56,210 nt of DNA from Deltaproteobacteria bacterium (GCA_016875025.1 VGSH01000003.1:1-56210), one strand, 5' to 3'; shown: positions 10,779 through 38,922, counted from the stretch's first letter. A program made the numbers and translations. Notes: a model not told the origin generated them from the sequence alone.

Positions 10779-10807
10779 TTGACAATGGGCACGAATGTTG
10801 ATATAAT
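10779..10807 (+). promoter_or_regulatory. Perfect consensus sigma-70 promoter with extended -10
   Basis: TTGACA at 10779-10784, a spacer of exactly 17 bases, and TATAAT at 10802-10807. The three bases before the -10 are TGA, which also satisfies the extended -10 (TGn). Transcription would begin near 10814, leaving a leader of about 125 bases before the MoaD-like gene at 10941. Confidence 0.85.
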
Positions 10808-10940
10808 TTTATATGTTTTTATTATCAGTTTTTACTGGTGTACGAAAAAAATATACACGGGCCGACGGTCCTTTCTTGCTGTTTCGGCAGTTTTCTAACA
10901 GGCATGATCAGTTATTAACTCAATTGATGGAGCTTCAGGT

Positions 10941-11261
10941 ATGTCGGTCATTAAAGTCAGCTGTAAGTATTTTACCACTGTTCTGGGTGCAACCAAAAAA
11001 GATGGCGAGATTGTTGAATTTCAGCCCGGGAAAACCGTGCAGGAATTCCTTGATTTCATGAGCGCAAAGTACGGCGACGGGTTTTCCAGGAATATCTATG
11101 CGGAAGGAACGATGCGGGGCGAGAAATTCCGCACGCCCAATATTTATCTCAACAAGCGGCGCATACAGTGGGTGCAGGATTTTCCCAAAGGGGTGCAGAC
11201 CATCGTGGGTGACGGCGATGAGTTCTGGTTCGGGCTGATTGTGGGCGGCGGCAGCTTTTGA
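10941..11261 (+). CDS. MoaD/ThiS-family ubiquitin-like protein with residues after the GlyGly
   Basis: A 106-residue beta-grasp-like protein. The N-terminal strand SVIKVSCKYF, the helix KTVQEFLDFMSAKYG, and the C-terminal GDGDEFWFGLIVGGG match the MoaD/ThiS/SAMP pattern, in which the terminal GG is adenylated and turned into a thiocarboxylate or joined to a target. Here the protein does not stop at GG: it ends GGGSF, so Ser-Phe would have to be removed first. QbsE, a ThiS-like protein with extra terminal residues trimmed by a JAMM protease, is a known parallel, and a JAMM protease lies 3 kb away. MoaD-like proteins also accompany tungsten aldehyde oxidoreductases. No E1-like activating enzyme is in the window. 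Expression should be strong given the consensus promoter. Confidence 0.78.
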   Translation: MSVIKVSCKYFTTVLGATKKDGEIVEFQPGKTVQEFLDFMSAKYGDGFSRNIYAEGTMRGEKFRTPNIYLNKRRIQWVQDFPKGVQTIVGDGDEFWFGLIVGGGSF

Positions 11262-11277
11262 GCCGCCTGCCGGCAGA

Positions 11278-12222
11278 TTATTTTTCCATGGCAAGGCGCT
11301 GCTCGGTGGCCGTGTCGTAGACCACCACGGTGCTTGATCGGCGCAGCTGCTTCACAAAATCATTGATCATTTCAACCGAGTGCATCTCATAGATGCTTTT
11401 CTTGAGGTTTTCCACGATATCCTCAAACGGCCAGATATGGCCTTCGGCAAGCACGGATTTGACATACAGCACGTTCAAGTTTGCCTCGGTTCTGACAACG
11501 CGCGATACCTGGCCGGAGCTCATGCGAAACGCTACTGAATCAAGCAGCGGGTGATACTGGCCGCGGGTCATAAAGCCCAGATCGCGGCAGGTCATGCCTT
11601 CGGCCGTTTTTTTTGATTCAAAGACTTCCATAAAGGCCTCCGGACCGCGCGTGCAGGGCTCAATCTTTGCCTGTGCTGCCTTGATCTCGGCGGGTTCAGC
11701 GTAGCGGTCAAGCGCGATCTCAACGAGCAGGATATGGCGCATTTCCGGCCCCTGCATCCGGCTGCGGTTTTCCTCATAGTAGGCGCGGGCATCCGCATCG
11801 GTTACCTCGCGTCGGCGGCCCTCAATCACGGAGGCAGCCACCGTGTTGGTGATAAGATCGCGCCTGAGCTGTTCCTGGTAGTCTTCAAGGGTCTGACCCT
11901 GCAGGGCCAGCACCGCGGCGAAATGCTCTTCGGACTGAAATTCCTGCATGGAGACCTTCAGGGCGTTTTCAAACTCCGCATCGCTGATGTGCGTTCCGCG
12001 GCGTTTGCCTTCCTGATAGAGCAGCTCGCGGGTTATCAGGCGGTCAATGACCGCCTGGCGCAGCTCGTACTGCTCATTCTGCATGAGCCGCACCTTGCCC
12101 TTGGTGTCGCGGTGAGGCTCATAGGCCAGCTCCAGACCGCAGGAGACGTCAAACTCGGTAATCCGGGCATCGTTGATGCGCGCGATAATGACATTTTTCA
12201 ACTTGGGGTCGACGGGCGGCAT
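11278..12222 (-). CDS. Cytoplasmic SurA/NifM-like parvulin peptidyl-prolyl isomerase
   Basis: A 314-residue protein with an N-terminal SurA/NifM-type helical chaperone region (about 1-150, including LRQAVIDRLITRELLYQEGK) and a parvulin domain from about 165 to 270 (MRHILLVEI, CRDLGFMTRGQYHPLLDSVA, SGQVSRVVRTE). Unlike SurA it has no signal peptide, so it should work in the cytoplasm, as NifM does when it helps a metalloprotein mature. An AGGA ribosome-binding site precedes the ATG. It follows the FAD oxidoreductase gene by 85 bases on the same strand, so a role in folding one of these redox proteins is plausible but inferred. Confidence 0.82.
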   Translation of the reverse strand: MPPVDPKLKNVIIARINDARITEFDVSCGLELAYEPHRDTKGKVRLMQNEQYELRQAVIDRLITRELLYQEGKRRGTHISDAEFENALKVSMQEFQSEEHFAAVLALQGQTLEDYQEQLRRDLITNTVAASVIEGRRREVTDADARAYYEENRSRMQGPEMRHILLVEIALDRYAEPAEIKAAQAKIEPCTRGPEAFMEVFESKKTAEGMTCRDLGFMTRGQYHPLLDSVAFRMSSGQVSRVVRTEANLNVLYVKSVLAEGHIWPFEDIVENLKKSIYEMHSVEMINDFVKQLRRSSTVVVYDTATEQRLAMEK

Positions 12223-12307
12223 AATAGTATCCTGTAAAAGTTTTTCGGGAGGCTATGAGGAGCGGGTGCTGAACACATCGATCAGCACCCGCGAATACGG
12301 CAGAAAA

Positions 12308-13600
12308 TCATGCACAGGCAGTCGCGGCCGGGTCGGCAGCGTAGCTGTTCACCACCGGCAGCACCTTTGCGTTCGGCCGGCGGACGAATTCCTCCCACGG
12401 GGTCTTGCCCACAATCGCGCCGCGGATAATGCCGGCGCCGTCAACATTGCCGATTGACATGAAGGCAAAAGGCACGCCGCCACGCAGCTTGACCTTCTGA
12501 TAGATGGCCGGGGTCTTGAAGGTGATTTCCTCGACATCCGGGCCCTCGTCCTGCACGTTGCCGATGGCGGTGATCCAGAGCTCGTAGAAATCAACGCTGT
12601 TCATCGGGATGTTGCCCTCATAGGTCAGCTTTTCGCCGGACATGTTGGCCGCGGCAATGCGCGCGCCTGCGGCGGCAACCGGCCAGATGGCATTGTAAAT
12701 CCACTCGCCCGTCACGATGTGGCGTGAGCGGCACACGTCCCCGGCGGCATAGATGCCGTCAACCGAGGTCTGCTGGCGGTCATCGACCAGCACGATGCGG
12801 TCAATGTCTACGCCGGAGTCTTTCAGGAAGTCCGTGCAGGCGCGCACGCCGACCGAGGCCACGATAAAGTCGCAGGCCTCCTCAGTGCCGTCCTGATAGG
12901 TCACGACGTAGCCGTCGCCGCGCTTGCGGGTGGCGATCACGGAGTTGTTCAGCTCGATTTCAAGCAGTTCATGGCGCGTCAGGCGCGCTTTCACGCGGGC
13001 GCTGGCCTCAAGATCGGTCATGCGGCCGAGCACGGTGGGCAGCAGCTCGACCACCTTGACCTGCACGCCCTGCTTCACCAGGCCGTAGGCGCTCTTCAGC
13101 CCGACAAACCCGGCACCGATAATAACGGCCTTCTTTCCTTTTTTGGCCCAGCTTTTGAGCCGGACGGAGTCGGCATAATTGCGCATGCCGATAATGCCGT
13201 CCGGGTCATACGGGAAAGCCGGCAGAAAAATCGGGGTCGAGCCGGTTGCAACCAGCAGCGTATCGTAGGAGACTGTTTTGTTTTTGCCGTTCTGCCGTAC
13301 CATAACCTGGCGGTTTTTCACGTCAAGGCCTTCGGCCCGGCTCGAGAGCATCAGCTCGACATTGCGCTCAGCATACCACTGCGCGTCGTGGGACAGCAGA
13401 TGCTTGCGCGTAATCATGTCGCCCAGAAAATAGGTTATCAGGCAGCGCGAATAGGAGGGAACATCCTCTTCGCCGATAATAACGATTGAATCCTGCGGGT
13501 TCATCTTGCGCAGGGTTTCTGCGGCTGATACGGCGGCAATGCAGTTGCCGACAATCACATGCTGCCGGCCGGTGGTGGAAGCGGTTTTGATTTTCTTCAT
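12308..13600 (-). CDS. NAD(P)/FAD-dependent oxidoreductase (AorC/NirB-like)
   Basis: A 430-residue two-dinucleotide-binding flavoprotein. The FAD site is at the N-terminus (HVIVGNCIAAVSAAETL), the NAD(P)H site near residue 155 (AVIIGAGFVGLKSAYGL), and the second FAD motif near residue 290 (VDGIYAAGDVC). A SYSRCLITYFLGD segment is typical of the NirB/rubredoxin reductase-like group. The second Gly of the first GxGxxA motif is replaced by Cys20. The gene overlaps the ferredoxin gene by four bases, so the two products are probably subunits of one complex moving electrons between NAD(H) and iron-sulfur clusters. The closest known arrangement is AorA-AorC of the tungsten aldehyde oxidoreductase AorABC, but no AorB lies here. 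Confidence 0.85.
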   Translation of the reverse strand: MKKIKTASTTGRQHVIVGNCIAAVSAAETLRKMNPQDSIVIIGEEDVPSYSRCLITYFLGDMITRKHLLSHDAQWYAERNVELMLSSRAEGLDVKNRQVMVRQNGKNKTVSYDTLLVATGSTPIFLPAFPYDPDGIIGMRNYADSVRLKSWAKKGKKAVIIGAGFVGLKSAYGLVKQGVQVKVVELLPTVLGRMTDLEASARVKARLTRHELLEIELNNSVIATRKRGDGYVVTYQDGTEEACDFIVASVGVRACTDFLKDSGVDIDRIVLVDDRQQTSVDGIYAAGDVCRSRHIVTGEWIYNAIWPVAAAGARIAAANMSGEKLTYEGNIPMNSVDFYELWITAIGNVQDEGPDVEEITFKTPAIYQKVKLRGGVPFAFMSIGNVDGAGIIRGAIVGKTPWEEFVRRPNAKVLPVVNSYAADPAATACA

Positions 13601-14067
13601 TTCTTCGGATACCCCCTCAGTTTGGCGCGACGTTTTTCATTGTTCTGTGCCCTGAGATCGTCAAAAAACAGAGCACCGCGGTCACAGGCGAACACGCAGG
13701 TGGGCTTTTCCTCCTTGCCGCACATCAGCGTGCATTTGAAGGCTTTTTCCTGGCTCATGATGGTTTTCATGGCTCCGTGCGGGCAGACCATGTTGCACAT
13801 GAAGCAGCCGATGCAGCGGTCTTCGTCCTGAATAATCAGGCCGTTGGGTCCGCGCTGCAGCGACTCGCCGATACAGGCGTCAACACAGGGCGCGTCCTCG
13901 CAGTGCTTGCACAGGCGCATAAACGGGCCTTCAGGGCTCTGCATGACCCGGATATGGGGCACATAGGCCCCGGACTGCTTTTTTGAACTGCCGCACACCT
14001 GGGCGCAGGCCTCTTCGCACTTGCGGCACAGGTCGCAGTTTTCAGCGATAAACCGAAACGCTTTCAT
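13597..14067 (-). CDS. Four-cluster 4Fe-4S ferredoxin-type electron transfer subunit (AorA/HycB-like)
   Basis: A 156-residue cytoplasmic protein with four cysteine groups: CDLCRKCEEAC at about 12-22 plus CGS at 25-27, CKHCEDAPCVDAC, CIGCFMCNMVCPHG, and CTLMC followed by CVFACDRGAL. This is the HycB/DmsB/AorA arrangement that holds up to four [4Fe-4S] clusters and relays electrons between a catalytic subunit and a partner. There is no signal peptide. An AAGGATG ribosome-binding site lies before the ATG, and the stop overlaps the start of the FAD oxidoreductase gene by four bases. The catalytic partner is not next to it. Confidence 0.9.
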   Translation of the reverse strand: MKAFRFIAENCDLCRKCEEACAQVCGSSKKQSGAYVPHIRVMQSPEGPFMRLCKHCEDAPCVDACIGESLQRGPNGLIIQDEDRCIGCFMCNMVCPHGAMKTIMSQEKAFKCTLMCGKEEKPTCVFACDRGALFFDDLRAQNNEKRRAKLRGYPKK

Positions 14068-14214
14068 GGGATCATCCTTTTCCGATAGTGGTAGTAAAGA
14101 TTTTCAGGTTGCTTTCAGCAGGGACTCATTATACGCTGATACAGTCAGGCGGACACCTTACCACGCGCTGCCGGATATGTCAATTTCGTTTTGCTTGAAC
14201 CGGGTTGTGCGCCT

Positions 14215-14616
14215 ATGAAAACAGCCTGCATTCCTGCCGGAGTGCGTGATGCCATGATCAGCCACAGCCGCTCGGAACTGCCCAATGAGTGCTGCGGGTT
14301 GCTGCTGGGGCGCTCCCGTATCGAGCGGGCCGTGCCCATGCGCTCTGATCCGCCCGCACCGGATGCCTATTACATGGATCCCGAGCAGCAGATCGCTGTT
14401 TTTACCGGCATGGAGGCCAGCGGAGAGCAGCTGCTGGGTATTTATCACTCGCATCCCGCCGGCCCGCTTGAGCCCTCCGGCATGGACCTGCAGCTTGCCT
14501 TTCACCCGGATGCACTGTATGTTATTATTTCACTGGCAGACGCACAGCATCCGGAGATCGGCGCTTACCGGCTGGAGGAGGGGCAGTTTAGCGAGGTTAC
14601 CATCTGTTATATATAA
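14215..14616 (+). CDS. JAMM/MPN+ metalloprotease (JAB1/Mov34/PAD-1 family)
   Basis: A compact, complete JAMM domain of 133 residues from the ATG at 14215 (a TTG at 14191 is also possible). The zinc site is intact: Glu25 in PNECCGLLLG, then His78, His80, Ser88 and Asp91 in HSHPAGPLEPSGMD. Prokaryotic stand-alone JAMM proteins (Mec, QbsD) act on ubiquitin-like or MoaD/ThiS-like proteins, removing residues after the GG or freeing GG-linked products. The gene lies on the same strand as the MoaD-like gene ending GGGSF 3 kb upstream, with the parvulin-FAD-ferredoxin trio in between, so that protein is the natural candidate substrate. No signal peptide is seen. Confidence 0.88.
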   Translation: MKTACIPAGVRDAMISHSRSELPNECCGLLLGRSRIERAVPMRSDPPAPDAYYMDPEQQIAVFTGMEASGEQLLGIYHSHPAGPLEPSGMDLQLAFHPDALYVIISLADAQHPEIGAYRLEEGQFSEVTICYI

Positions 14617-19462: not shown

Positions 19463-19656
19463 TAGTATAACGAAAAAAAATCCGCTGTGCCACCGGCCGT
19501 GCCTGCAGGCCCAGAATCGCGGCTCAGCAGGACTTTTTTTCAGGCGTTTTCCGGTTCTGCTTGCCTTCAGCGGTTTTTTTTAGTAGACTGCCTGAATACG
19601 CCTGCCCGGGTTTTGAAACCCGCATGCGCAGCGCTTCACCACGGAGGATGCACCCC

Positions 19657-19971
19657 ATGATTGAGTCCCTTACACGCATTAAACAGTCCGAACAGGCGGC
19701 AGATGAGCGCATGCGGGCTTCCGAGAAAAAAGCCCTTGCGCTTGTGGACCAGGCTGCCGTTGATGCCAGGGCCCTGATCGCGCAGGCTGAAACGTCCGCG
19801 GCAGCACAAGCCGGCACTATGATGGAGCAAGCCTGTACGGACGCCCGGAGCGAAGCTGAAAAAATTATCCAGGCCGGCCGGGCTGATGCCGGCCGTATTG
19901 CCGCACAGGGGCAGGGCAGGCTCGGCGCTGCCGCCAGCCTGATTGTTGCGCATATCATAGGAGAAGCCTGA
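19657..19971 (+). CDS. V-type ATPase peripheral stalk subunit H/G
   Basis: A 104-residue, almost entirely helical, Ala/Glu-rich protein (IKQSEQAADERMRASEKKAL, ARSEAEKIIQAGRADAGRIA) typical of the long coiled coil that pairs with subunit E to form the peripheral stalk. The ATG at 19657 is preferred because GGAGG lies nine bases before it; earlier in-frame starts add a tail that does not look like the family. It is the first gene of the V-type ATPase operon and corresponds in position to ntpF of Enterococcus hirae. It ends one base before the gene for subunit I. Confidence 0.85.
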   Translation: MIESLTRIKQSEQAADERMRASEKKALALVDQAAVDARALIAQAETSAAAQAGTMMEQACTDARSEAEKIIQAGRADAGRIAAQGQGRLGAAASLIVAHIIGEA

Positions 19972-19972
19972 G

Positions 19973-21925
19973 ATGTTTTTTCCCGAGCGCATGAAGCGCA
20001 TCCGGCTGCTGGCGCATGCATCCTGCAGGCAGGCTGCGGTCAAGAAACTGCACGAACTCGGCGCTGTCCAGATAACCGATTTTCGCACCACACTGACCCG
20101 TTCCGAATGGAAGGACCTTCTGCAGGCCCATCCCGCATCTTCTGACGTGCGCCGGATCACCACGCAGCTCATGGGTCTTAACCGGCTGCTGGATGTTTTT
20201 GCCACGATCGCGCCTGAGCTGCAGGAAGGTTTTTTTAAAACCCTGTTCGCTCCGGCTCCGCCTGAGAAAATCAGGGTTGAGGATCTGTCCGGGGAGGCAC
20301 TTTTCCAGGAGGTGCAGGCTTTGCTCGGCACGGCTGACGCAGCGGTTGCCCAACCCCTTGAGATGCTTGAAAAGGCAGCTGCCGAACGGGCTGAGCTTGC
20401 GGCCCAGCGCGCTGCCTTTGCCCAGATCGCCTCGCTTGGGGTGCGTCTGGCCGATATCGGCCAGGGTTCGTTCGTGCATAGTTTTCTGGGGCTGGGCCCC
20501 GCACGGGAGTACACGCAGCTCGCAGCCGACATAGAGGCGCTTGCGGGCGGTTTGAGCGTTTGTGAGGCCAGAAGTGTTGCGGACGAAAAAACATGCCTGC
20601 TGGTGATCTGCCCGGCCGCATGCGCTGATGAGGTATACCAGCTGCTCAGAAAAAACGATGTCGAGCGCATTGCCGCCGGTCGCTTTGCGGGCACGCCTGC
20701 TGAAGCGCTTCGCGACATTGACAGCCGAATGCGTGAGCTTGATGAGAATCAGAGCGCAAGCCGTGCCGCGATTATGGATGCGGCCGGCAGCCATCGCAGC
20801 CGCCTCAAGGCCCTGCGTGAGCTTCTGCTCATTGAGCGCGAGCGCTGCGACGCCTGCGCCGGCTTTGCGCGCACCGGTCAGGTGGTTGCCATTGAAGGCT
20901 GGATAATCGCCAAACAGGCCGAGGCGGTCGCACGTGAGCTTGAGTCGGCCCTGGGCGGGCTGGCGGCCGTGTTTATAACCGAGCCGGATGAGCCTGAGGA
21001 AAAGCTGCCTGTGGCGCTCAACAACCCCGGCATCCTGAAGCATTTCGAGCTGCTGGTCAAGCTCTACGCCCCGCCGAAATATAATGAGATCGACCCCACC
21101 GTGCTGATTGTGCCCACGTTTTTGTTTTTCTTCGGGTTAATGATCACCGATGCCGTGTACGGTTTGATGACGCTTCTGCTGGGAATTTTTATTCTGCGCG
21201 GCGGCGGCAAATACTATCCGCTGTATAAGAGCTGCGGCATTATGCTGGCCCTGGGAGGAGCCTCCACAATCGTACTGGGCGCACTGACCGGCGGATGGCT
21301 CGGCAATCTTTTTGTTGACTATCTCGGCCTTACATTTTTTAACAGCATGGTCGTTATCAATCCCATGGTCGACGTTTCCGACTTTCTCGTGTTTGCCATC
21401 GCCGTGGGCGTGCTGCATCTGAATGTCGGCGCGGTCGTGGGCATCATAAAGGACGTTCGCTGCGCGAACGTCCCCTCAGCCCTGAAGAACGTGTGGATCT
21501 TTTTCATGGAAATCAGCCTTATCTGCTATTATTACAAGGCGCAGGCGCCTGCCCTCGTGTTCGGCGTGCTTGCGCTTGTGTTTCTGCTTTACAGCGCCAA
21601 GGGCATGGCCCTGTTCGGCCTGACAGGTTTTCTGGGCGATTCGCTGTCCTATGCTCGCCTGATGGCCCTTGGCCTCGTGAGCTTCGGTCTGGCCGTGGCG
21701 ATCAATGCGTTGGCGAAAATGGTGTGGGGTATTGACTATGTCGGCTGGCTCATTGCCCTGCTGATTTTGATCGGCGGGCATCTGTTCAGCTTCGTGCTGA
21801 ATTTGATGGGTGCGTTCGCGCACGGTATCCGGCTGCATTTTGTCGAGTTCTTCGGGAAGTTTTACGAGGGTGGCGGCGAGGATTTTACCCCCTTTAGCAT
21901 CAAGCGTCGCATAACGGAGCTGTAA
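19973..21925 (+). CDS. atpI: V-type ATPase subunit I (membrane stator, V0 a-like)
   Basis: A 650-residue protein with a cytoplasmic N-terminal half (about 1-365, starting FFPERMKRIRLLAH and rich in coiled helix) and a C-terminal half with about seven membrane segments (VLIVPTFLFFFGLMITDAVY, ILRGGGKYYPLYKSCGIMLA, SYARLMALGLVSFGLAVAIN, FSFVLNLMGAFAHGIRLHFV). Subunit I forms the half channels against the proteolipid ring. The conserved Arg in SLSYARLMALGL is in the region expected to face the ring glutamate. Start chosen at the first ATG with GGAG nine bases upstream. A 10-bp perfect inverted repeat lies inside the gene at 21451-21473. Confidence 0.94.
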   Translation: MFFPERMKRIRLLAHASCRQAAVKKLHELGAVQITDFRTTLTRSEWKDLLQAHPASSDVRRITTQLMGLNRLLDVFATIAPELQEGFFKTLFAPAPPEKIRVEDLSGEALFQEVQALLGTADAAVAQPLEMLEKAAAERAELAAQRAAFAQIASLGVRLADIGQGSFVHSFLGLGPAREYTQLAADIEALAGGLSVCEARSVADEKTCLLVICPAACADEVYQLLRKNDVERIAAGRFAGTPAEALRDIDSRMRELDENQSASRAAIMDAAGSHRSRLKALRELLLIERERCDACAGFARTGQVVAIEGWIIAKQAEAVARELESALGGLAAVFITEPDEPEEKLPVALNNPGILKHFELLVKLYAPPKYNEIDPTVLIVPTFLFFFGLMITDAVYGLMTLLLGIFILRGGGKYYPLYKSCGIMLALGGASTIVLGALTGGWLGNLFVDYLGLTFFNSMVVINPMVDVSDFLVFAIAVGVLHLNVGAVVGIIKDVRCANVPSALKNVWIFFMEISLICYYYKAQAPALVFGVLALVFLLYSAKGMALFGLTGFLGDSLSYARLMALGLVSFGLAVAINALAKMVWGIDYVGWLIALLILIGGHLFSFVLNLMGAFAHGIRLHFVEFFGKFYEGGGEDFTPFSIKRRITEL

Positions 21926-21931
21926 CGGTTT

Positions 21932-21958
21932 CCGGGCGTCTGCCGCAGGCAGGCCCGG
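21932..21958 (+). promoter_or_regulatory. Intercistronic hairpin before the proteolipid gene
   Basis: A strong stem of 11 pairs (CCGGGC with GCCCGG, then CTGCC with GGCAG, three-base loop, two-base bulge) between atpI and atpK. No T-run follows, so it is not a standard terminator. Its position just before the gene needed in highest copy number suggests a role in mRNA processing or stability. Confidence 0.45.
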
Positions 21959-22019
21959 GATAGAACATAGAACGAGAACAGAAGCGTTGTTTTTTATTTA
22001 ATCAGATGGAGGTAGAGGC

Positions 22020-22508
22020 ATGCAGGAAGTACAATTCACCTTAGGCTTGGGACTGGCGGCCCTCGGCGCAGGGCTTGCCATGGGTGTTGCGGCGATCGGT
22101 TCCGGTATCGGCGTCGGTATTGCCGGCGCGGCCGGTGCGGGCGTTATTGCCGAGGACACCAAGAAATTCGGCTCTGTCCTGATACTGCAGGCTTTTCCGC
22201 AGACCCAGGGTATTTACGGCTTTGTCACGGCCGTTTTGATCCTGATGGGTGTCGGCCTGCTGGGTGGTACGCCCAAGCCGATTTCAATGGAACTGGGCCT
22301 GATCTGTCTGGGCGCGGGCCTTTCCTCGGCTCTGGGCGGCATTACCGCTATCGGTCAGGGCATTACCGCAGGTGCCGGTATGGGCTCGGTTGCCAAGAAT
22401 CCGGCTTCGCTCGGCCAGAACATGGTGCTGGCGGTCATGTCTGAAACATTTGCCGTGTTTTCGCTGCTGATCGCCATTTTGATCATGGTCGGCGCCGGCA
22501 TTATGTAG
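22020..22508 (+). CDS. atpK: V-type ATPase subunit K, 16-kDa double-hairpin proteolipid with Na+ ligand pattern
   Basis: A 162-residue proteolipid made of two fused helical hairpins (four membrane helices). The first hairpin has Gln where an acid would be (FPQTQGIYGFV, about 59-69); the second carries the single ion-binding Glu142 (AVMSETFAVF). Thr62, Gln63, Gln113 (AIGQGITAGAG) and Glu142 line up with Thr64, Gln65, Gln110 and Glu139 of Enterococcus hirae NtpK, which bind Na+. This suggests a Na+-translocating ring with one site per four helices. A GGAGG ribosome-binding site is present about 10 bases before the ATG. It follows the hairpin at 21932. Confidence 0.95.
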   Translation: MQEVQFTLGLGLAALGAGLAMGVAAIGSGIGVGIAGAAGAGVIAEDTKKFGSVLILQAFPQTQGIYGFVTAVLILMGVGLLGGTPKPISMELGLICLGAGLSSALGGITAIGQGITAGAGMGSVAKNPASLGQNMVLAVMSETFAVFSLLIAILIMVGAGIM

Positions 22509-22577
22509 CATGCACCTGAGCTGTGGCGGGGCGCACCTGACAGGGGCGCCTTCACCCGTCTATGAAAGGATCTGTTG

Positions 22578-23222
22578 ATGGCAGGCGGAGTAGATAAAAT
22601 AATAGCGCAGATCGAAAAAACCGCTGAGGAAAAAGTGGCCGATATTCTGGCCGAAGCCCGCAGCAGGGCCGATGCGCTGCTGGCTGAAGCGCGCACGCAG
22701 GCCTCCGAACAGGAACGCGCAGCGCTTGCACGCGGTGAGCAGGAGGCCCGTCGGGAAACACAGCGTATTCTGGCCGAGGCGCGCATACAGGCCCGGCGCG
22801 CGCGCGTGCAGGCTCAGGAGGACAGTGTCCGCCAGGCCTTTGATCAGGCGCGCCAGATGCTTCAGGCCCTGGCTGACAAAGGGGACGCCGGCGGTTTTTC
22901 CTATACGGAAATCTTAAAGCGGCTCATTGTTGAATCAGTCGCGGCAACCGACACTGCCGAGCTGGAGGTGCTGGTGCGTCAGGCCGACCGGGCGCTGCTG
23001 ACCGCCGAACTGCTCAGCGCTGTTGCGGCCGAGGCCGGCCGCGCAACCGGCCGCAATATCGTTTTGACGCTGAGCCCTGAAGCGCTTGCATGCGCGGGCG
23101 GCGCAGTGGTGCGCAGCCGTGACGGCCGGGTAAGGGTTGACAACACATTCGAGGCCCGCACCGCCCGGTTCATGGACGCGATCCGTACCCGGGTTGCCAG
23201 GGAACTTTTCGCCGGGGAGTAA
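22578..23222 (+). CDS. atpE: V-type ATPase peripheral stalk subunit E
   Basis: A 214-residue protein with a long helical N-terminal half (IIAQIEKTAEEKVADILAEA, RAALARGEQEARRETQRILA) and a globular C-terminal domain (LKRLIVESVAATDTAELEVL, CAGGAVVRSRDGRVRVDNTF). The last motif, GGAVVRSRDGRVRVDNTFEA, is the usual subunit E signature (GG-x-x-x-x-x-DG-x-x-x-xNT). It joins subunit H in the stalk that ties the catalytic head to subunit I. The ATG at 22578 with AAAGGA upstream is preferred over the TTG just before it. Confidence 0.93.
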   Translation: MAGGVDKIIAQIEKTAEEKVADILAEARSRADALLAEARTQASEQERAALARGEQEARRETQRILAEARIQARRARVQAQEDSVRQAFDQARQMLQALADKGDAGGFSYTEILKRLIVESVAATDTAELEVLVRQADRALLTAELLSAVAAEAGRATGRNIVLTLSPEALACAGGAVVRSRDGRVRVDNTFEARTARFMDAIRTRVARELFAGE

Positions 23223-23225
23223 TGC

Positions 23226-24347
23226 ATGGAAAGTAATTTTTTACTGGTTCTCGGGCTGATCGTGCTGGGCCTGGCGCTGCCGCTGCTTGTTTTCCTCATG
23301 CGACTGCTCAGCTCTATCCTGCCCTACCTGTATGCCACGGCGCGCATCCGTGCCAAAGAGGCGCGGCTTCTCAAGCCCGAAACCCTGGAGGAAATGATCA
23401 ATACCGGCTCGGTGGCTGAGATCGCCTCGCTGCTTGAAAATACGGAATACGCCCTGGCCATGCAGGGCCTGGTGCTTGAGAGTGCCGAATCGATCGAACA
23501 GCTGCTTGAGCGGCAGACCGCGGACATCTACAGCGAAGTCGCGGCGCTGGTGCCCGCAAAGGTGCAGGGAGCTTTTTCTTTTCTGCGCCGGCAGTGGGAT
23601 GTGCGTAATGTGAAAACCGTGCTGCGCGGCGTGCGCGCAGGTCTTGCTGCTGAAAAAATAATGGCCTCTGTTCTGCCGTTCGGCACCCTGGACACCGAGC
23701 TTTTGAAAAAAATGGCCGAGGGCTCCGGTATTGATGATGTGCTGCCCCTGCTTGAGGCAACACCCTACGGAGCGCTGGCCCAGATGCTGCCGGCCTATGA
23801 ACAGGAGGCAAGCCTGCTGCCGCTTGAGGCTACGCTTGACAAAGTGCTGCTCGAGGGCATGTGGCGAGAGGTTGAAGCGCGAGGGCCCCTGCAGGTGCTG
23901 CAGCCTTTCTGTGCCGCGCGTATTGACGCTTTGAATATACAGATACTGCTGCGCGCCAAGCGCGATCATCTGCTGCTGGCCGATGTCGAGCCGTACCTGA
24001 TCAGCGGCGCTCAGGCCTCGCAGTGTCTTATCAGGGCCTTTGACGAGGTTGATGATGTCAGCGCGCTCGTAAGCGAACTGGAAGGCACGCTCTACTATAA
24101 GCCGGTCATGGATGCGCTGGCCGATTATGACCGCAACGGGTCCCTGTTCGCTCTTGAAAAGGCGCTGGATGAAACTGCGTTGGCTGTGGGCCGCGATACG
24201 GCCGTTAAGCAGCCCTACGGAATTGCTCCGGTTGCAGGGTTTCTGGCGCGCAAGGATGTGGAGGTGCGCACGATCAGGGCGATTGCACGCGCCAAGGAAG
24301 CCGGCCTTGCGCCCGAATATATCCGTGAGCTGGTGGTAAACGTATAA
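23226..24347 (+). CDS. atpC: V-type ATPase subunit C with an extra N-terminal membrane anchor
   Basis: A 373-residue subunit C (V0 d-like central connector between rotor shaft and proteolipid ring). The family part begins at about residue 33 (YLYATARIRAKEARLLKPE) and includes QWDVRNVKTVLRGVRAG and repeated helical motifs. Unusually, about 30 hydrophobic residues precede it (NFLLVLGLIVLGLALPLLV then FLMRLLSSILP), enough for one membrane helix. The start is supported by GGGGAG eight bases before the ATG at 23226, and no better internal start with a ribosome-binding site is seen. Family members are normally soluble, held to the ring by contact only. Confidence 0.92.
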   Translation: MESNFLLVLGLIVLGLALPLLVFLMRLLSSILPYLYATARIRAKEARLLKPETLEEMINTGSVAEIASLLENTEYALAMQGLVLESAESIEQLLERQTADIYSEVAALVPAKVQGAFSFLRRQWDVRNVKTVLRGVRAGLAAEKIMASVLPFGTLDTELLKKMAEGSGIDDVLPLLEATPYGALAQMLPAYEQEASLLPLEATLDKVLLEGMWREVEARGPLQVLQPFCAARIDALNIQILLRAKRDHLLLADVEPYLISGAQASQCLIRAFDEVDDVSALVSELEGTLYYKPVMDALADYDRNGSLFALEKALDETALAVGRDTAVKQPYGIAPVAGFLARKDVEVRTIRAIARAKEAGLAPEYIRELVVNV

Positions 24348-24411
24348 ATCAGCGGACTGCCGGGGGCGTATGAGCCCCGGGCGCCGGGTTTTGTTTGATG
24401 GAGTATATGCG

Positions 24412-24729
24412 ATGGAACTGGTTGTGATGGCCGATGAACATTCCGCAACGGCGTTCCGGCTTGCCGGGGTCAGGCGGGTCTATGACGGCGGCGCCGGCGA
24501 GGAGCAGCTGCACAGCCTGCTTGCCGATGACAAGGTCGGCATGCTGATTGTAACCGAGCGCGTTGCCGATACGCATCGCCGCATGATTGATGATCACAAG
24601 GCGTCAAAACGCATTACACCGATCGTGGTCGAGGTTCCGGATGTGAACGGGCCTGTAGAGCGCGAGATTGATCCGATCCGCGAGCTTATCCGGCGCGCGA
24701 TAGGGGCGGATGTGACCGCCAAGGCATAA
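24412..24729 (+). CDS. atpF: V-type ATPase subunit F (central stalk)
   Basis: A 105-residue alpha/beta protein starting MELVVMADEHSATAFRLAGV, with VGMLIVTERVADTHRRMID and ITPIVVEVPD, the standard subunit F layout. It binds subunit D in the rotating shaft. The ATG at 24412 with GGAG about nine bases upstream is preferred over an earlier in-frame start that would fall in a GC hairpin (about 24372-24393). The position between C and A matches ntpG in Enterococcus hirae. Confidence 0.9.
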   Translation: MELVVMADEHSATAFRLAGVRRVYDGGAGEEQLHSLLADDKVGMLIVTERVADTHRRMIDDHKASKRITPIVVEVPDVNGPVEREIDPIRELIRRAIGADVTAKA

Positions 24730-24830
24730 CACGTCTGTGTATGGAAGGTTTACGGGCGCCGCGGGTTATCTGCACTGCAGATCCGGCCGGTGCGTCCGGG
24801 AAATGAATTTTTAACAGGGAGGGTCCCAAT

Positions 24831-26597
24831 TTGCCCGAATTCAAAGATGGAACTATTAAAAGCATAGCCGGTCCGCTTGTGATCGCCAAGGGATTGGCGG
24901 GCTGTCGGATGTATGAGGTTGTCCGGGTCGGCGAAGAGAGCCTCATGGGTGAAACCATTCGGCTGGACGGCGAAGAGGCCTATATTCAGGTTTATGAAGA
25001 CACCTCCGGCCTGAAACCGGGAGCGCCCGTGATGCGCACCGGCGAGCCCCTCTCTGTTGAGCTGGGCCCCGGCATCATGAAGAATTTCTACGACGGCATT
25101 CAGCGGCCCCTGCTCGATATAAAGAAACAGGCCGGTGACTATATCACGCGCGGCATCGTGGCCCCGGGTCTTGACCCGCAGAGGAAATGGGATTTTACCC
25201 CGGTGGCCGCAGTCGGCGCGCAGCTTGAAGAAGGTGACGTGCTCGGTACGGTTCCTGAAACACAGGTTATCACGCACAAAATCATGGTGCCGCCGGGTAT
25301 GCGCGGCAAACTGCTTGAAATCAAGCCGGGAGCATTTACGGTTGATGAAACCGTGGCCGTGCTTGAGCATGACGGCAAGCGTATAAATATGACCATGAAA
25401 CAGAAATGGCCGGTGCGCATCAATCGCCCCAATAAGCGCAAGCTTGATCCCAGTGTGCCGCTTCTGACAGGTCAGCGCATCTATGACACGTTTTTCCCCA
25501 TGGCCAAGGGCGGTACGGCTGCCCTTCCCGGAGGGTTCGGAACCGGCAAAACCGTCAGCCAGCACCAGGTTGCCCGCTGGGCCGATGCCCAGGTCGTGGT
25601 GTACGTGGGCTGCGGTGAGCGCGGCAATGAGATGACCGAAGTGCTCGAGACGTTTCCGGAAATCGATGATCCCAAGACCGGCTATAAGCTGATGGAGCGC
25701 TCGACCCTGATCGCCAACACGTCCAACATGCCGGTTGCGGCCCGCGAGGCCTCGATCTACACGGGCGTGACCATTGCCGAATATTACCGCGACATGGGCT
25801 ACGATGTGGCCATTATGGCCGATTCGACCTCGCGCTGGGCCGAGGCCCTGCGCGAAATCTCGGGCCGTCTTGAGGAAATGCCCGGTGAAGAGGGCTACCC
25901 GGCCTACCTGGCAACGCGTATCGCGAGCTTCTACGAGCGCGCAGGCCGCGTCGTAACCCTGGGCAGCGATGAGCGCTTCGGTTCGGTTTCGATTATCGGC
26001 GCGGTGTCGCCTCCGGGCGGTGATCTCTCAGAGCCGGTTGCGCAGAACACGCTGCGCGTGGTGAGCGCGTTCTGGGCGCTTGACTCGACCCTGGCTGACC
26101 GCCGGCACTTTCCGGCCATCAACTGGCTCCGGAGCTATTCGCTGTACCTTGATTTTACCAGGGCCTGGTATGATGAGAACGCAACCGCGGCGTTTCGGCA
26201 GTTTCGCACCCGAACCATGATCATTTTGCAGGAGGAGTCCGAGCTGTCTGAAATCGTGCAGCTGATCGGTCCGGATGCGCTGCCTGAGCGCGAGCGTCTC
26301 ACTCTTGAAATCGCCCGCATGGTGCGCGAGGACTACCTGCAGCAGCACGCGTTTCACAAGGAGGACACATTCTGCCCTCTTGAAAAACAGCTCAAAATGC
26401 TCGCGACCATCATGACCTTTGAGGAGCTGGCGCTGCGCGCCCTGGAAAAGGGCGCAGGCATTGAAGCCATCAGCAAGCTGCCTGTCCGGGATGAAATTTC
26501 GCGCATGAAGTACATTACCAATGCATCCTTTAAAGAAGAACATGCAGCGCTCGAGACACGGATGCAGGAACAATTCAAAGCACTGGGAGATGCGTAA
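24831..26597 (+). CDS. atpA: V-type ATPase catalytic subunit A
   Basis: A 588-residue catalytic subunit. The P-loop is GGFGTGKT near residue 235, a small variation on the common GPFGSGKT. Other family marks are [40 protein letters not shown] (Walker B region), and [11 protein letters not shown]. It hydrolyses or makes ATP at the A-B interface. The start is a TTG (24831), supported by GGGAGGG seven bases upstream and by N-terminal family similarity; no ATG fits better. The stop overlaps the start of atpB by one base. Confidence 0.96.
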
Positions 26598-27991
26598 TGA
26601 ATGCCGATATCAAGACCAGGGAGTACAGAACAGTTAAGGAAGTAGCCGGCCCTCTGATGGTCATTGAAGGGGTGGAAGGCGTAGCCTACGGTGAGGTCGT
26701 CCGCATTCGTACCGGTTCCGGCGAGGAGCGCACCGGCCAGGTGCTCGAGTCCCGCGAGGGGCTTTCGATTGTACAGGTTTTCGAAGGCACGGCCGGTATC
26801 GACACACGGGACACCACCGTGCGTTTTACCGGCGATACCATGAAACTGGCGGTTTCAAAGGACATGGTCGGCCGCTTTTTCGACGGCCTGGGACGTCCGA
26901 TCGACGACGGCCCCGAAATTATTTCCGATGTGCGCCTTGACATCAACGGCGCTTCGATCAACCCGGCTGCGCGCGCGTTTCCGGATGAATTCATCCAGAC
27001 CGGCATTTCCACCATCGACGGCATGAATACGCTGGTTCGCGGCCAGAAGCTGCCTATTTTCTCCGGGGCCGGCATGACGCACAACGAGCTTGCCGCGCAG
27101 ATCGCCCGCCAGGCCAAGGTGCTCAGCTCGACCGAGCCGTTTTCGGTCGTGTTTGCGGCCATGGGCATCACCAGTGAAGAGGCCAACTTCTTCATGCGCG
27201 ATTTTGAGCGCACCGGCGCCATGGAGCAGATCGTGGCCTTTATCAACCTGGCCGATGATCCGGCCATTGAGCGCATCATCACCCCGCGCATGGCCCTGAC
27301 AACGGCTGAATATCTTGCATTTGAGTGCGACATGCACGTGCTGGTCATTTTGACCGACATGACCAATTACTGCGAGGCCCTGCGGGAAATCGCCGCAGCG
27401 CGCGAAGAGGTTCCGGGACGGCGCGGATATCCCGGTTACATGTATACTGATCTGGCCTCGAGCTATGAACGGGCGGGGCGTATTCGCGGGCGCAAGGGCT
27501 CGATTACGCAGATGCCGATTCTGTCAATGCCCGATGACGACATCACGCACCCGATTCCCGACCTGACCGGCTACATCACCGAAGGGCAGTTCGTGCTCTC
27601 GCGCGACCTGCACCGCCGCGGCATTTACCCGCCGGTTGACGTGCTGCCCAGCCTTTCGCGCCTCATGAACCAGGGTATCGGTCCGAAGCGCACCCGCGAG
27701 GACCATTCCGGCGTGTCGGACCAGTGCTACGCGGCTTACGCAGAAGGCCGCGACGTGCGCAACCTGGTGGCGGTCGTAGGCGAAGAGGCCCTGACCGAGC
27801 GCGACCGGCGGTTCCTGAAATTTGCCGATGCCTTTGAAAAGGAATTCGTCATCCAGGGTCGCGATGAAAACCGCTCGATCGAGGAAACGCTCGATCTTGG
27901 CTGGCGCCTGCTCACGATCCTGTCCGAAGGCGAGCTCAAGCGCATCGACGCCGAGCATATTAAAAAATACCATCCCAATTACAAGAAGTAG
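26597..27991 (+). CDS. atpB: V-type ATPase regulatory subunit B
   Basis: A 464-residue non-catalytic subunit. It starts [20 protein letters not shown], lacks a P-loop as expected ([20 protein letters not shown]), and has [20 protein letters not shown] and [12 protein letters not shown], both typical for B subunits. It alternates with A in the hexameric head. Its ATG overlaps the atpA stop codon (TAATG), implying coupled translation, which fits the 1:1 ratio of A and B. Confidence 0.96.
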
Positions 27992-28011
27992 CCTTGCGGG
28001 GAGCATGAACC

Positions 28012-28668
28012 ATGGCTGATATTATTGAGGGAACCAAACCGACCCGCATGGAGCTGCTGCAGCTGCGCAAGCGCGCGGTGCTGGCCGAGCGCGGGCACCG
28101 GCTCCTCAAGGAAAAGCGCGACGCACTGATATCAGAGTTTTTGAGTATTGCCGGCAATGTGCGCGCCATTCGCGAGGCTGCCCAGCAGCAGCTCGCCGCG
28201 GCTTACGCTGACATGCTGCAGGCTCAGGCCGTTATGGGGGTCGGGGTTGTGCGCGAAGTTTCCTGGAACACCGGCCAGGACCTGCAGGTGCGCATGAAAT
28301 CCCGCAACATCATGGGCGTGACCGTGCCGATCATTGAATCCGACAAGGCCGAGCGCAGCCTGATCCGCCGCGGCTACGGCTTTGCCGGCACAAGCGCCAA
28401 GCTGGACGAGGCCGCGAAGAAAATGGAGCAGGCCATCGAGGCTATTGTCCGCCTGGCCGAGGTTGAGGAAACCGTGCGCCGGCTTGCGCTCGAGGTTGAA
28501 AAAACCAAGCGGCGCGTGAACGCGCTTGAATACATTGTTGTTCCGCGGCTGCGGGCCACGGTCAAATATATCCGCATGCGCCTTGATGAAATCGAGCGTG
28601 AAAGCTTTACGCGCCTGAAAAAAATAAAAGCCGTGCTGGATAGCCGCGAGAAGCAGGCCGGGGCATGA
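28012..28668 (+). CDS. atpD: V-type ATPase subunit D (rotor shaft)
   Basis: A 218-residue protein with long N- and C-terminal helices that form the central shaft: GTKPTRMELLQLRKRAVLAE at the start and RRVNALEYIVVPRLRATVKY IRMRLDEIERES near the end, both diagnostic. It turns inside the A3B3 head and contacts F and C. Spacing to atpB is 20 bases. Its stop codon overlaps the ATG of a further small gene (ATGA), so the operon continues. Confidence 0.95.
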   Translation: MADIIEGTKPTRMELLQLRKRAVLAERGHRLLKEKRDALISEFLSIAGNVRAIREAAQQQLAAAYADMLQAQAVMGVGVVREVSWNTGQDLQVRMKSRNIMGVTVPIIESDKAERSLIRRGYGFAGTSAKLDEAAKKMEQAIEAIVRLAEVEETVRRLALEVEKTKRRVNALEYIVVPRLRATVKYIRMRLDEIERESFTRLKKIKAVLDSREKQAGA

Positions 28669-28832
28669 CCGGCGGGCTGCTGTATGAGCATCACCGGGAG
28701 CGCAGCCGTCGCGAGGAAAAGCGCCGGTTTGCCCTGTTCCTGGCGGCTCAGTTCCTGCACTACGGTGCGCTGCTGTTGCTGCTGCTGGGGGGGCTTTTTT
28801 TCATAGTGCTGGGCGTGCGGGTGCTGCTCTGA
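28665..28832 (+). CDS. 55-residue membrane protein translationally coupled to atpD
   Basis: A short gene whose ATG overlaps the atpD stop by four bases (ATGA). The product begins MTGGLLYEHHRERSRREEKR, a strongly basic cytoplasmic head, followed by FALFLAAQFLHYGA and LLLLLLGGLFFIVLGVRVLL, which form one or two membrane-spanning helices. It ends at a TGA at 28830-28832. It holds the place occupied by the tiny ntpH in the Enterococcus hirae operon, but I see no basis to call it a homologue. It may be an accessory or assembly peptide of the V-type ATPase. Coding status rests on the overlap, the charged-head/hydrophobic-tail pattern and the good codon use. Confidence 0.65.
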   Translation: MTGGLLYEHHRERSRREEKRRFALFLAAQFLHYGALLLLLLGGLFFIVLGVRVLL

Positions 28833-28908
28833 GCGCCGCAGCATGATCTGTACCGTCCGTCTTCTGGTAGTGTGTGCTATACTATAATCAGGAAGGAGGG
28901 CTGCCATC

Positions 28909-29355
28909 ATGTCAATGCCGATATCCCATATTATGCTGACAAAAGTGGTGATGTGCGAGGAGGTTACTTCGCTCCGGAAGACCGCCGAGCTGCTTCGTGC
29001 TGAACATGTCGGCTCAGTGCTGGTGGCCCATGGCGAGGAGATTGCCGGAATTATCACGGTCAATGATGTGCTGGCAGCGCTGCTGGCGGGCCGCGACCCT
29101 GACACAACCTGCGCCAGAGATATCATGTCCCGTCCGGTTCAGAGCATTGCCCAGGATATGAGCATTGAGGATGCGCTGCGCGCATTTGAACGCACCGGCT
29201 GCGCACGGCTGGTGGTCATGAGCGGCAGCAGAGTCGCAGGCATGCTGAAAAAATCGGTTGCCGAGCGTTTCAAGGGTCTGACGGGCCTGTATACGTTCAC
29301 GCCCGCGTCCCGGTCCCTGCCGTTTCGCCGCGGCAGCGGCAGTACGGCCACGTGA
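28909..29355 (+). CDS. Two-CBS-domain protein
   Basis: A 148-residue protein made of a CBS pair: the first covers about 5-60 (SLRKTAELLRAEHVGSVLVA, EIAGIITVNDVLAALLAG), the second about 70-130 (CARDIMSRPVQSIAQDMSIE, ALRAFERTGCARLVVMSGSR). CBS pairs bind adenine nucleotides and sense energy charge or regulate partners. No catalytic domain is attached. A GGAGG ribosome-binding site (AGGAAGGAGGG) precedes the ATG. Its place right after the ATPase operon makes a sensing role for adenylate conceivable, but nothing shows a direct link. The last 20 residues are basic and not part of the fold. Confidence 0.88.
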   Translation: MSMPISHIMLTKVVMCEEVTSLRKTAELLRAEHVGSVLVAHGEEIAGIITVNDVLAALLAGRDPDTTCARDIMSRPVQSIAQDMSIEDALRAFERTGCARLVVMSGSRVAGMLKKSVAERFKGLTGLYTFTPASRSLPFRRGSGSTAT

Positions 29356-29407
29356 CATCCGTTCGCCGCATTTTTAAGCTGCGCAACGGGATATTCTTGA
29401 CAGCCGG

Positions 29408-29451
29408 GAATGCCGTGCATAGTTTATAGGTATGCGGCATTCTTTTTTTTT
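29408..29451 (+). terminator. Rho-independent terminator after the CBS gene
   Basis: GAATGCCG (29408-29415) pairs with CGGCATTC (29435-29442), with further partial pairing inside, followed by a run of nine T. It closes the ATPase/CBS transcription unit before map. Confidence 0.85.
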
Positions 29452-29504
29452 GATATGAAGCTCTGCATGCTGAACCGGCTGCGATGTGCTCAAGGGTTGC
29501 TTCT

Positions 29505-30263
29505 GTGATTGTTCTGAAAAGTGATGCTGAACTGAATAAGCTCTATGCCGCCAACCAGATCGTGGCCCGGACCCTGCGGCTGCTGAGCGAAAAAATCGAG
29601 CCCGGTATGACGACCGCCGCGCTTGACGCTCTGGCCGAGCAGACCATACGCGCCGAAGGAGCTGAGCCGGCCTTCAAGGGCTATCACGGTTTTCCGTCAG
29701 CCCTGTGCATTTCGATCAATGAGCAGGTCGTGCACGGCATACCCGGAAAGCGGCGTATCAAAAACGGTGACGTGGTCAGCCTCGATGTCGGCGTGCTGCT
29801 GGATGGATTTTACGGCGATGCGGCCCTGACGGTTCCGGTCGGCGACATTGCGCCTGCGGCCCGCAAGCTGCTGCGCGTCACCGAGGAGTCGCTGTATAAG
29901 GGGATTGAAAAAGCCGTGCCCGGCGGGCGGCTTGCGGATATTTCCGCGGCCGTGCAGCAACATGTAGAGGATCACGGGTTCAGCGTAGTGCGCGATTTTG
30001 TGGGCCACGGCATCGGCCGCAGCCTGCATGAGGATCCGCAGATACCCAATTTTTATTCCCCGGCCGCGTTCAACCCGCGTTTGAAGGCCGGTATGGTATT
30101 GGCGCTGGAGCCGATGGTGAACCAGGGCACGCACAAGGTACGCGTGCTGCATGACGGCTGGACCGCGGTCACGCAGGACGGCAAACTCTCAGCCCATTAT
30201 GAGCATACCGTTGCCGTCACCGCAGAGGGCCCCTGGATTCTCAGCCGTCTTGACGGAAGGTGA
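29505..30263 (+). CDS. map: Methionine aminopeptidase, type I
   Basis: A roughly 252-residue enzyme that removes the initiator Met from new proteins. Metal ligands are visible: two Asp in SLDVGVLLDGFYGDAALTV, His in DFVGHGIGRSLHEDP, Glu in VLALEPMVNQG, and Glu in SAHYEHTVAVT. The catalytic His is in KGYHGFPSALCISINEQVVH. The GTG at 29505 (VIVLKSDAEL) has AAGGG eight bases upstream and is preferred over the ATG at 29484, which has no ribosome-binding site. It is followed by def, so the two enzymes of N-terminal maturation form one unit. Confidence 0.95.
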   Translation: MIVLKSDAELNKLYAANQIVARTLRLLSEKIEPGMTTAALDALAEQTIRAEGAEPAFKGYHGFPSALCISINEQVVHGIPGKRRIKNGDVVSLDVGVLLDGFYGDAALTVPVGDIAPAARKLLRVTEESLYKGIEKAVPGGRLADISAAVQQHVEDHGFSVVRDFVGHGIGRSLHEDPQIPNFYSPAAFNPRLKAGMVLALEPMVNQGTHKVRVLHDGWTAVTQDGKLSAHYEHTVAVTAEGPWILSRLDGR

Positions 30264-30296
30264 GAGGCCCGGATGGCGGTATGCACAGGAGCAGCT

Positions 30297-30785
30297 ATGG
30301 CAAAGCTTGAAGTTCTTCGCTACCCCAACTCAGTGCTTCGCAAAAAATGCGAACCGATTGAGACTATTGATGATGCGGTTGTGCAGCTTGCGCGCGACAT
30401 GCTGGAGACCATGTACGAAGATAAAGGCGTCGGTCTGGCCGCGCCCCAGGTCGGTGTAAGCCGCCGGTTGATCGTGCTTGATGTTGGCGACGGCCCGCTG
30501 GCGCTGATCAATCCTGAAATCACTTCTGCCGAAGGCACCGACACCATGGAAGAGGGCTGTTTGTGCCTGCCCGGTATCAATGTCGAGGTCGAGCGCAGCG
30601 CCCGCGTGCGTGTTGTCGGCCTTGACACCTCCGGCAAACCGCTCGACATCGACGCCGACGACCTGCTTGCCCGGGCCCTGCAGCATGAGATCGACCACTT
30701 GTCCGGCACGCTGATTATCGACAAGGTCTCAAAGCTCAAGCGCGACCTGCTGATCAAAAAATACAAAAAAAATCAGCAGCCCTAG
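30297..30785 (+). CDS. def: Peptide deformylase
   Basis: A 162-residue metalloenzyme that removes the formyl group from initiator Met, acting just before the aminopeptidase encoded upstream. All three motifs are present: GVGLAAPQVG near residue 44, EGCLCLPG near 88 (usual form EGCLS, here Cys instead of Ser), and QHEIDHLSG near 130 with the two metal-binding His and catalytic Glu. The start is the ATG at 30297 with AGGAG eight bases before it. The stop codon is overlapped by the end of a palindromic element. Confidence 0.95.
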   Translation: MAKLEVLRYPNSVLRKKCEPIETIDDAVVQLARDMLETMYEDKGVGLAAPQVGVSRRLIVLDVGDGPLALINPEITSAEGTDTMEEGCLCLPGINVEVERSARVRVVGLDTSGKPLDIDADDLLARALQHEIDHLSGTLIIDKVSKLKRDLLIKKYKKNQQP

Positions 30786-31300: not shown

Positions 31301-31324
31301 ACCTGACATATGGAGGAACTAAGC

Positions 31325-33145: not shown

Positions 33146-33147
33146 AT

Positions 33148-37127: not shown

Positions 37128-37324
37128 TTATTAGCAAATAATATAATAAAATAGCATTAAAGGAAATAAAGGCGAAATTGTTGTTTGTCAGTCAAGTGGC
37201 AGTAGCTTGAAGGTCAATTCAGCTGTTGCAAAAATTGCAATAGTTGAAAGCGGAGTGGCGTGTGAACTATCCGGGAAAACCGGTTAGTTTATGATTGCGA
37301 TATGCGGTATATGGGCATTGAATT

Positions 37325-38749: not shown

Positions 38750-38768
38750 ATCGATACTTATATCGGAG

Positions 38769-38795
38769 CAGATGTTGCAAGTTTTGCAACATCTG
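38769..38795. repeat. Perfect inverted repeat, first of two before hsdR
   Basis: CAGATGTTGCAA (38769-38780) and its exact complement (38784-38795) around GTT. There is no T-run, so it is not a typical terminator. It lies 20 bases past the AlbA-domain gene. Confidence 0.85.
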
Positions 38796-38811
38796 GTTCT
38801 CGGGCCGCAGG

Positions 38812-38838
38812 GAGTTGTCCGGAAGTACCGGACAACTC
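38812..38838. repeat. Perfect inverted repeat, second of two before hsdR
   Basis: GAGTTGTCCGG (38812-38822) and its exact complement (38828-38838) around AAGTA. No T-run follows. Together with the first inverted repeat it occupies the 170-base gap before hsdR and may be a regulator binding site or mRNA processing structure. Confidence 0.85.
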
Positions 38839-38922
38839 ATTCAGCATTAAAGGTGACTATTAGGTATGTGCATTATGTGCACATGCTGGCGAAATAACAC
38901 AATGCAGGAAGGACATCATGTA

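Follow-up and report, generated by a model that had tools for sequence, protein, structure and literature searches.

The locus described here raises the question of why a small ubiquitin-like protein, its C-terminal glycine blocked by two extra residues, should be encoded within a few kilobases of a JAMM metalloprotease and a set of redox genes. In quinolobactin (QbsD/QbsE) and homocysteine (HcyD/HcyS) synthesis, a ThiS/MoaD-like protein carries residues past its GG (GG-CF at the end of QbsE), is trimmed by a JAMM protein and is then activated by an E1. The first-pass annotation of the window, by which we mean the whole 56,210-nucleotide stretch analysed (Deltaproteobacteria bacterium, GCA_016875025.1, VGSH01000003.1:1-56210), had suggested that the same could happen here, and that the module could activate sulfur or a metal cofactor for an oxidoreductase.

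All five genes were recovered at the positions given by that annotation. The ubiquitin-like protein (UBL; 106 aa, MoaD/ThiS-like beta-grasp) is encoded on the plus strand at 10941..11261, behind a candidate sigma-70-type promoter (10779..10807, plus strand; TTGACA-17-TATAAT with an extended -10, matching the consensus at 12/12 positions). TTGACA boxes were also seen by eye, in an alignment, upstream of the UBL gene in six other genera, and a search of the UBL leader against Rfam returned no riboswitch match at the gathering score. The ORF translation ends, as had been claimed, in GGGSF (FWFGLIVGGGSF, then the stop codon; that is, IVGGG-SF), with the plus-strand GGG motif at 11244-11252 followed by extra Ser and Phe codons at 11253-11258 that block the C-terminal glycine (feature 11244..11258).

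Profile matches placed three genes between UBL and JAMM, on the opposite (minus) strand: a NifM-like parvulin-type peptidyl-prolyl isomerase with SurA_N and PpiC domains and, by eye, no obvious signal peptide (PpiC; 11278..12222), an AorC-like FAD/pyridine nucleotide oxidoreductase (FAD; 12308..13600) and a ferredoxin-like protein of the HycB/AorA superfamily with four 4Fe-4S motifs (FES; 13597..14067), the last two genes overlapping by 4 bases. The likely promoter of this FES-FAD-PpiC operon (14155..14183, minus strand) combines TTGACA at 14183-14178, a 17-base spacer and TAAGGT at 14160-14155, the latter a weak -10 match read by eye. It sits within the divergent intergenic region common to the operon and the JAMM gene, where the four genera aligned share the 12-mer AAATTGACATAT (operon strand, containing the -35 box) without a single change. 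JAMM itself (MPN+ metalloprotease, 133 aa) occupies 14215..14616 on the plus strand; an alternative start exists at the upstream TTG 14191, from which the first-pass span had been drawn, and the homologue in G001, a genome of the window's own genus, favours ATG 14215.

UBL scores below the curated cut-offs of ThiS (13.7 versus 22.5 bits, Pfam) and moaD_arch (31.6 versus 49.5, NCBIfam), whereas its relatives on contigs C22 of G008 and C280 of G002 do pass the ThiS cut-off. Despite these scores, the predicted structure makes the assignment to the MoaD/ThiS beta-grasp fold secure: the AlphaFold model has a pLDDT of 90, with terminal residues 103-106 disordered, and its best solved-structure matches (Foldseek, probability 1.00) are molybdopterin synthase small subunits (MoaD), SAMP1 and CysO. 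A viral structure library gave no match at E ≤ 0.001. The active site of JAMM, reported earlier as intact, is indeed complete: Glu25, His78, His80, Ser88 and Asp91 (numbered from ATG 14215) follow the MPN+ arrangement Glu, His-x-His-x7-Ser-x2-Asp, and are invariant across 11 homologues. JAMM matches Prok-JAB (Pfam, E = 2.8e-24), as the sole such match of this genome, and a desampylase model (E = 2e-23, under that model's cut-off).

We then asked what UBL is inherited with, surveying 17 draft genomes of the class, which were counted as independent, with relatedness ignored, for all co-occurrence p values given here. UBL homologues were found in 11 of the 17 genomes (10 intact, one decayed), and among 395 genomes drawn from the phylum, those outside the class yielded three weak matches only. 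One subfamily of tungsten-type aldehyde oxidoreductases (AOR) was also present in 11/17 genomes, and an intact UBL occurred in 10 of these 11 carriers versus none of the six others (p = 0.0006), or in 9/9 versus 0/4 when only genomes at least 85% complete were counted. Comparisons inside two genera add to this: nothing in G001 matched the AOR subfamily, UBL, FAD or a large VWA protein described below, and G003, which shares its genus with G002, is without the AOR subfamily and has a UBL decayed by an in-frame stop.

Physical linkage, a mark of AorD-type factors, is found in the relatives and not within the window itself. UBL lies no more than about 6 kb from the pair formed by AOR and its Fe-S subunit, FES2, at loci L018, L019, L036 (about 5 kb), L038, L041, L042, L043 and L044; in most relatives its neighbour is either AOR or an E1 of the ThiF/MoeB type, and G014 has the order FAD, E1, FES2, AOR, UBL. 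In the present genome the cognate AOR is found outside the window, where contig C69 ends, accompanied by its FES2 and with an 80-aa protein downstream; it is 85% identical to the AOR of L019. The large VWA protein, whose gene neighbours that of a MoxR-type ATPase, is distributed like UBL and AOR, save for one 39%-identical match in G016. Members of the AOR subfamily also carry a KK-x-KY-type C-terminal tail (11/12), which is altered in G014 and absent from the six further AORs of this genome used for comparison. With this co-inheritance it is very likely that UBL serves this AOR; that it does so as a sulfur carrier for the enzyme's maturation is probable.

The redox genes point the same way, and with them the earlier suggestion that the module serves an oxidoreductase gained ground. 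Among solved structures FAD is, as proposed, nearest to AorC of the Aromatoleum AOR (8c0z chain E, E = 4.8e-45), and its close homologues are confined to AOR carriers (8/11 versus 0/6). The ferredoxin does carry its four clusters, but is nearer to HycB-type subunits than to AorA, to which it had been likened; the true AorA-like subunit is FES2, which matches 8c0z_C. The AOR on C69 matches 8c0z_A, yet archaeal AORs match it better. The order of the genes around PpiC is the same in G004, G005, G006, G007 and G008.

Activation of the UBL C-terminus is supported by the neighbouring E1 genes. ThiF-family E1 genes adjoin UBL in G002, G004 and G009, in G014 the two share one run of genes, and a natural UBL-E1 fusion joined through GGGSYNG (modelled with low confidence, pLDDT 61.5) occurs in G004. 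No E1 is encoded within the window. The only MoeB-like E1 found in this genome, on contig C30, is flanked by IscS-like and TusA-like genes, followed by a TtcA-like gene (all names but ThiF given by eye); it may act with this UBL, and its identity to the E1s encoded beside UBL is no more than 34-39%.

If UBL is such a carrier, its blocked end calls for explanation. A protein ending exactly at GG would be obtained from GGGSF only after processing; residues after GG are what QbsE and HcyS have, and UBL has SF. Across the 13 UBL copies aligned, GG is invariant (13/13); eight have residues past GGG, three stop at GGG and two at GGA, the copies of G008, G002 and G014 being among those with no tail. 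The tails differ widely: SF, ADTH, VR, NK, SS and NT in six genera, one long tail beginning TSNVSGF, and the E1 fusion. They are enriched in this family, occurring in 8/13 UBL copies versus 3/44 other ThiS/MoaD proteins with a domain-end GG in the same genomes (p = 1e-4). Six of the eight are of four residues or fewer, which is unlikely for random run-on to the next stop (P ~2e-4, shared ancestry ignored) and, with that caveat, disfavours such chance run-on as the source of the tails. Short tails of non-conserved residues suggest a constraint on length and not on sequence, as expected for a cap, and the capped end is genuinely characteristic of the UBL family. A restriction of tails to genomes with JAMM found no support: the association was not significant for UBL (p = 0.31) or for all carriers (p = 0.07).

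The best explanation of the whole, which we regard as evenly balanced between right and wrong, casts UBL as a MoaD-type sulfur carrier dedicated to the maturation of one tungsten-type AOR and made as a capped precursor (GGG, then Ser-Phe) from which JAMM would remove the Ser-Phe tail. A ThiF/MoeB-type E1, here presumably the C30 gene, which appears to share an operon with the genes of an IscS-like desulfurase and of TusA, would adenylate the exposed glycine; this would become a thiocarboxylate, and its sulfur would pass to the pterin dithiolene or enter another sulfuration step of AOR. The ferredoxin-FAD-parvulin operon might give the enzyme an NAD(P)H-linked, AorC-like electron branch and a folding factor. 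A more elaborate pathway, in which JAMM both uncaps UBL and strips it from conjugates on the lysine tail of AOR, is a long shot.

Within this scheme, JAMM trimming is the most parsimonious account of the tail, and we give it about an even chance, since JAMM stands alone in G001 and was not detected in G002 and G009 (76 and 89% complete), although both have AOR and UBL, that of G009 being tailed. The protease is found in all eight FAD genomes (8/8, p = 0.002) and co-occurs with AOR (p = 0.018) and with UBL (p = 0.05). Its gene and the FES-FAD-PpiC operon point away from each other in G000, G004, G005 and G007, representing four genera. Residues after GG are present in eight of 13 UBL copies, and a JAMM gene lies near UBL only in this genome, at 3 kb, and in G007, which has the same cluster. 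In G001, the stretch syntenic with the window starts precisely with JAMM, the break falling between that gene and the ferredoxin gene, and the protease is kept there without UBL, AOR or FAD; with a pairwise dN/dS of ~0.16 between the G001 and window copies, this retention suggests that JAMM may have another job. The G001 copy has eight unique changes versus one in the window copy when polarised by the nearest outgroup, a difference not borne out by distant outgroups, and the excess could reflect relaxation.

These observations give substance to a different account, in which the MPN+ protease JAMM has a general or unrelated role (Mec-like, for example, or acting on another ThiS/MoaD substrate), and UBL still serves AOR, with a tail that some other peptidase cuts or that is tolerated or read unaltered. 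Its retention in G001, its apparent lack in G002 and G009, the non-significant association with tails and its variable neighbours elsewhere (thiouridylase-like in G014, NuoEF-like in G008 and G010) would all fit; against them stand the single JAMM of this genome, the conserved pairing with the redox operon and its presence wherever FAD is present, and we judge this account rather unlikely, though worth keeping in view. That the five window genes are unrelated and adjacent by chance might be argued from the fact that most relatives encode UBL and JAMM far from each other or on different contigs, but the identical cluster order here and in G007, and the co-inheritance of UBL, FAD, AOR and VWA, disfavour it and leave it very improbable.

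Two further alternatives concern UBL itself. It could be a protein modifier placed on lysines of AOR or its partners, with JAMM as a desampylase-like deconjugase and the lysine-rich AOR tail as a possible acceptor. The sub-cut-off desampylase match, the resemblance of UBL to SAMP1, the prevalence of the KK-x-KY-type tail and the Ubls of T. kodakarensis, which form conjugates in addition to carrying sulfur for the tungsten cofactor (PMC11323500), lend this some colour; the altered tail in G014 and the more common sulfur-carrier role of such proteins near AOR weigh against it, sequence offers no direct sign of conjugation, and we consider it improbable. UBL might instead belong to the AOR complex as a structural or assembly subunit, its GG end a relic with no part in sulfur chemistry, as a strong promoter of its own and a class-restricted subfamily might suggest. 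This is hard to reconcile with the invariance of GG, with E1 adjacency and fusion, which point to C-terminal activation, or with the absence of AorD from purified AOR (PMC6365974), and has very little probability in our estimate.

The sulfur-carrier reading bears on how AOR-family enzymes gain their tungsten cofactor and on why AOR operons carry MoaD copies of their own. It offers a testable gate, with a two-residue cap, one JAMM in the genome and a natural UBL-E1 fusion, and it marks the co-inherited AAA+/VWA pair, the parvulin and the 80-aa protein as candidate maturation factors. Should the gated version be true, maturation of a tungsten enzyme would be switched by ubiquitin-like processing.

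Parts of this arrangement have been described before. The available text of Iyer et al. (2006) lists AOR-MoaD clusters with MoeB, a pyridine-disulfide oxidoreductase and a 4Fe-4S ferredoxin (PMC1779556, Table 1, row 3), which resemble the present set in combining a MoaD-like protein, AOR, an E1, an FAD oxidoreductase and a ferredoxin, with general cofactor genes apart. What sets our module apart from those clusters is its capped GG and the pairing of a JAMM with the redox operon; the parvulin and VWA partners are likewise unmentioned for them in that text. The same survey states that JAB proteins are completely absent from the thiamine and Mo/W cofactor pathways, and proposes that JAB might cleave fused ThiS/MoaD (PMC1779556); if our reading is true, a JAMM would belong to an AOR/W-cofactor context in which that survey saw none. 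In Aromatoleum aromaticum, AorD and AorE are MoaD-like maturation factors that raise the tungsten content and activity of AOR (PMC9295118). AorABCDE thus shares with our module the AorC and AorA homologues and the MoaD-like factors, but forms one operon, with no JAMM mentioned in the accessible parts of these reports, whereas in this genome the module is spread across contigs (PMC6365974, PMC9295118).

Closer to the proposed chemistry, T. kodakarensis requires the Ubl TK2118 and an E1 for its tungsten cofactor, and its UblB and UblC are MoaD-type proteins tied to tungsten enzymes, one encoded beside AOR and one beside an E1; that work mentions no JAMM, in contrast to the JAMM encoded here (PMC11323500). 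The JAMM protein DR0402 cleaves a MoaD-MoaE fusion to free the glycine, and DR0402 and HvJAMM1, which release a MoaD-type glycine for molybdopterin synthesis, are in this respect like the protease proposed here, but their substrates are MoaE fusions (MoaD-MoaE and SAMP1-MoaE) and not a two-residue tail, or, in G004, an E1 fusion (PMC8832034). The literature searched, the scope of which excluded subscription papers, contained no description of an AOR system with a JAMM or with a capped carrier. MoaD-AOR-MoeB clusters and the trimming of MoaD/ThiS-like proteins by JAMM are each known, and it is their union here that looks new. The QbsD/QbsE and HcyD/HcyS pairs, which share the post-GG residues, make small metabolites, whereas the enzyme linked to UBL is a tungsten-type AOR.

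The subfamily of tungsten-type aldehyde oxidoreductase (AOR) that is co-inherited with the MoaD/ThiS-like ubiquitin-like protein (UBL) carries a conserved Lys/Tyr-rich C-terminal tail, e.g. EKKKVKYYY (L049:12741-14708 and homologues), which is missing from the six other AORs of the window's genome that were compared with the cognate enzyme. That genome, at 3.25 Mb, has an unusually large set of about nine AOR-family genes, found on contigs C34, C111, C164, C69 (the cognate AOR), C40, C60, C132, C2 and C71. Immediately 3' of the AOR gene lies a gene for a conserved protein of ~80 aa (L049:14742-14984; L019:6799-7038), and a Pfam scan of the L019 copy returned no match.

A MoxR-type ATPase and a ~960-aa VWA protein with a CoxE-like domain, candidate metal-centre insertion chaperones, adjoin either the JAMM metalloprotease gene or the AOR-UBL genes and are co-inherited with the AOR (L067:1009-4960; L069:5624-9304; L070:1-2348; L041:15636-19522). 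Genes that by eye resemble NuoE, NuoF and HoxU (L112:308-8153; L066:9916-15461; L068:1-4842; L072:720-7578) adjoin the ferredoxin-FAD oxidoreductase-parvulin operon in G006 and lie close to JAMM in G008, G010 and G014.

In four genera, ATGTCAATT is found immediately 5' of JAMM (window 14178-14218). It forms the in-frame N-terminus of the protease in G004, G005 and G007; in the window it starts a 13-codon frame, the TGA of which overlaps the JAMM ATG. V/A-type ATPase genes, as read by eye, occupy window 19561-30785; V-ATPase-like genes are found in G015 as well, on the flanks of JAMM (L071). A type I restriction-modification locus (HsdM, HsdS, HsdR; 31310-41838) is interspersed with a protein kinase gene, a Schlafen/AlbA_2 gene and a 399-aa ORF with no Pfam match.

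Canonical MoaD of the window's genome (L198, G000:C24:27200-28200) extends beyond GG (GG-SAGKAWIQ), as do the MoaD of G010 (GG-CKQRKRT) and the G014 C182 protein (GG-SSLQ); these three may be additional JAMM substrates. In G003:C220 (L039:2607-2915), the UBL has altered residues and is interrupted by an in-frame TAA, and this genome is without the cognate AOR. In G004:C177, a single 348-aa frame (L035:9553-10599) joins UBL to a ThiF-type activating enzyme (E1) via a GGGSYNGLSE linker, immediately preceded by a second E1 gene (L035:8718-9527).
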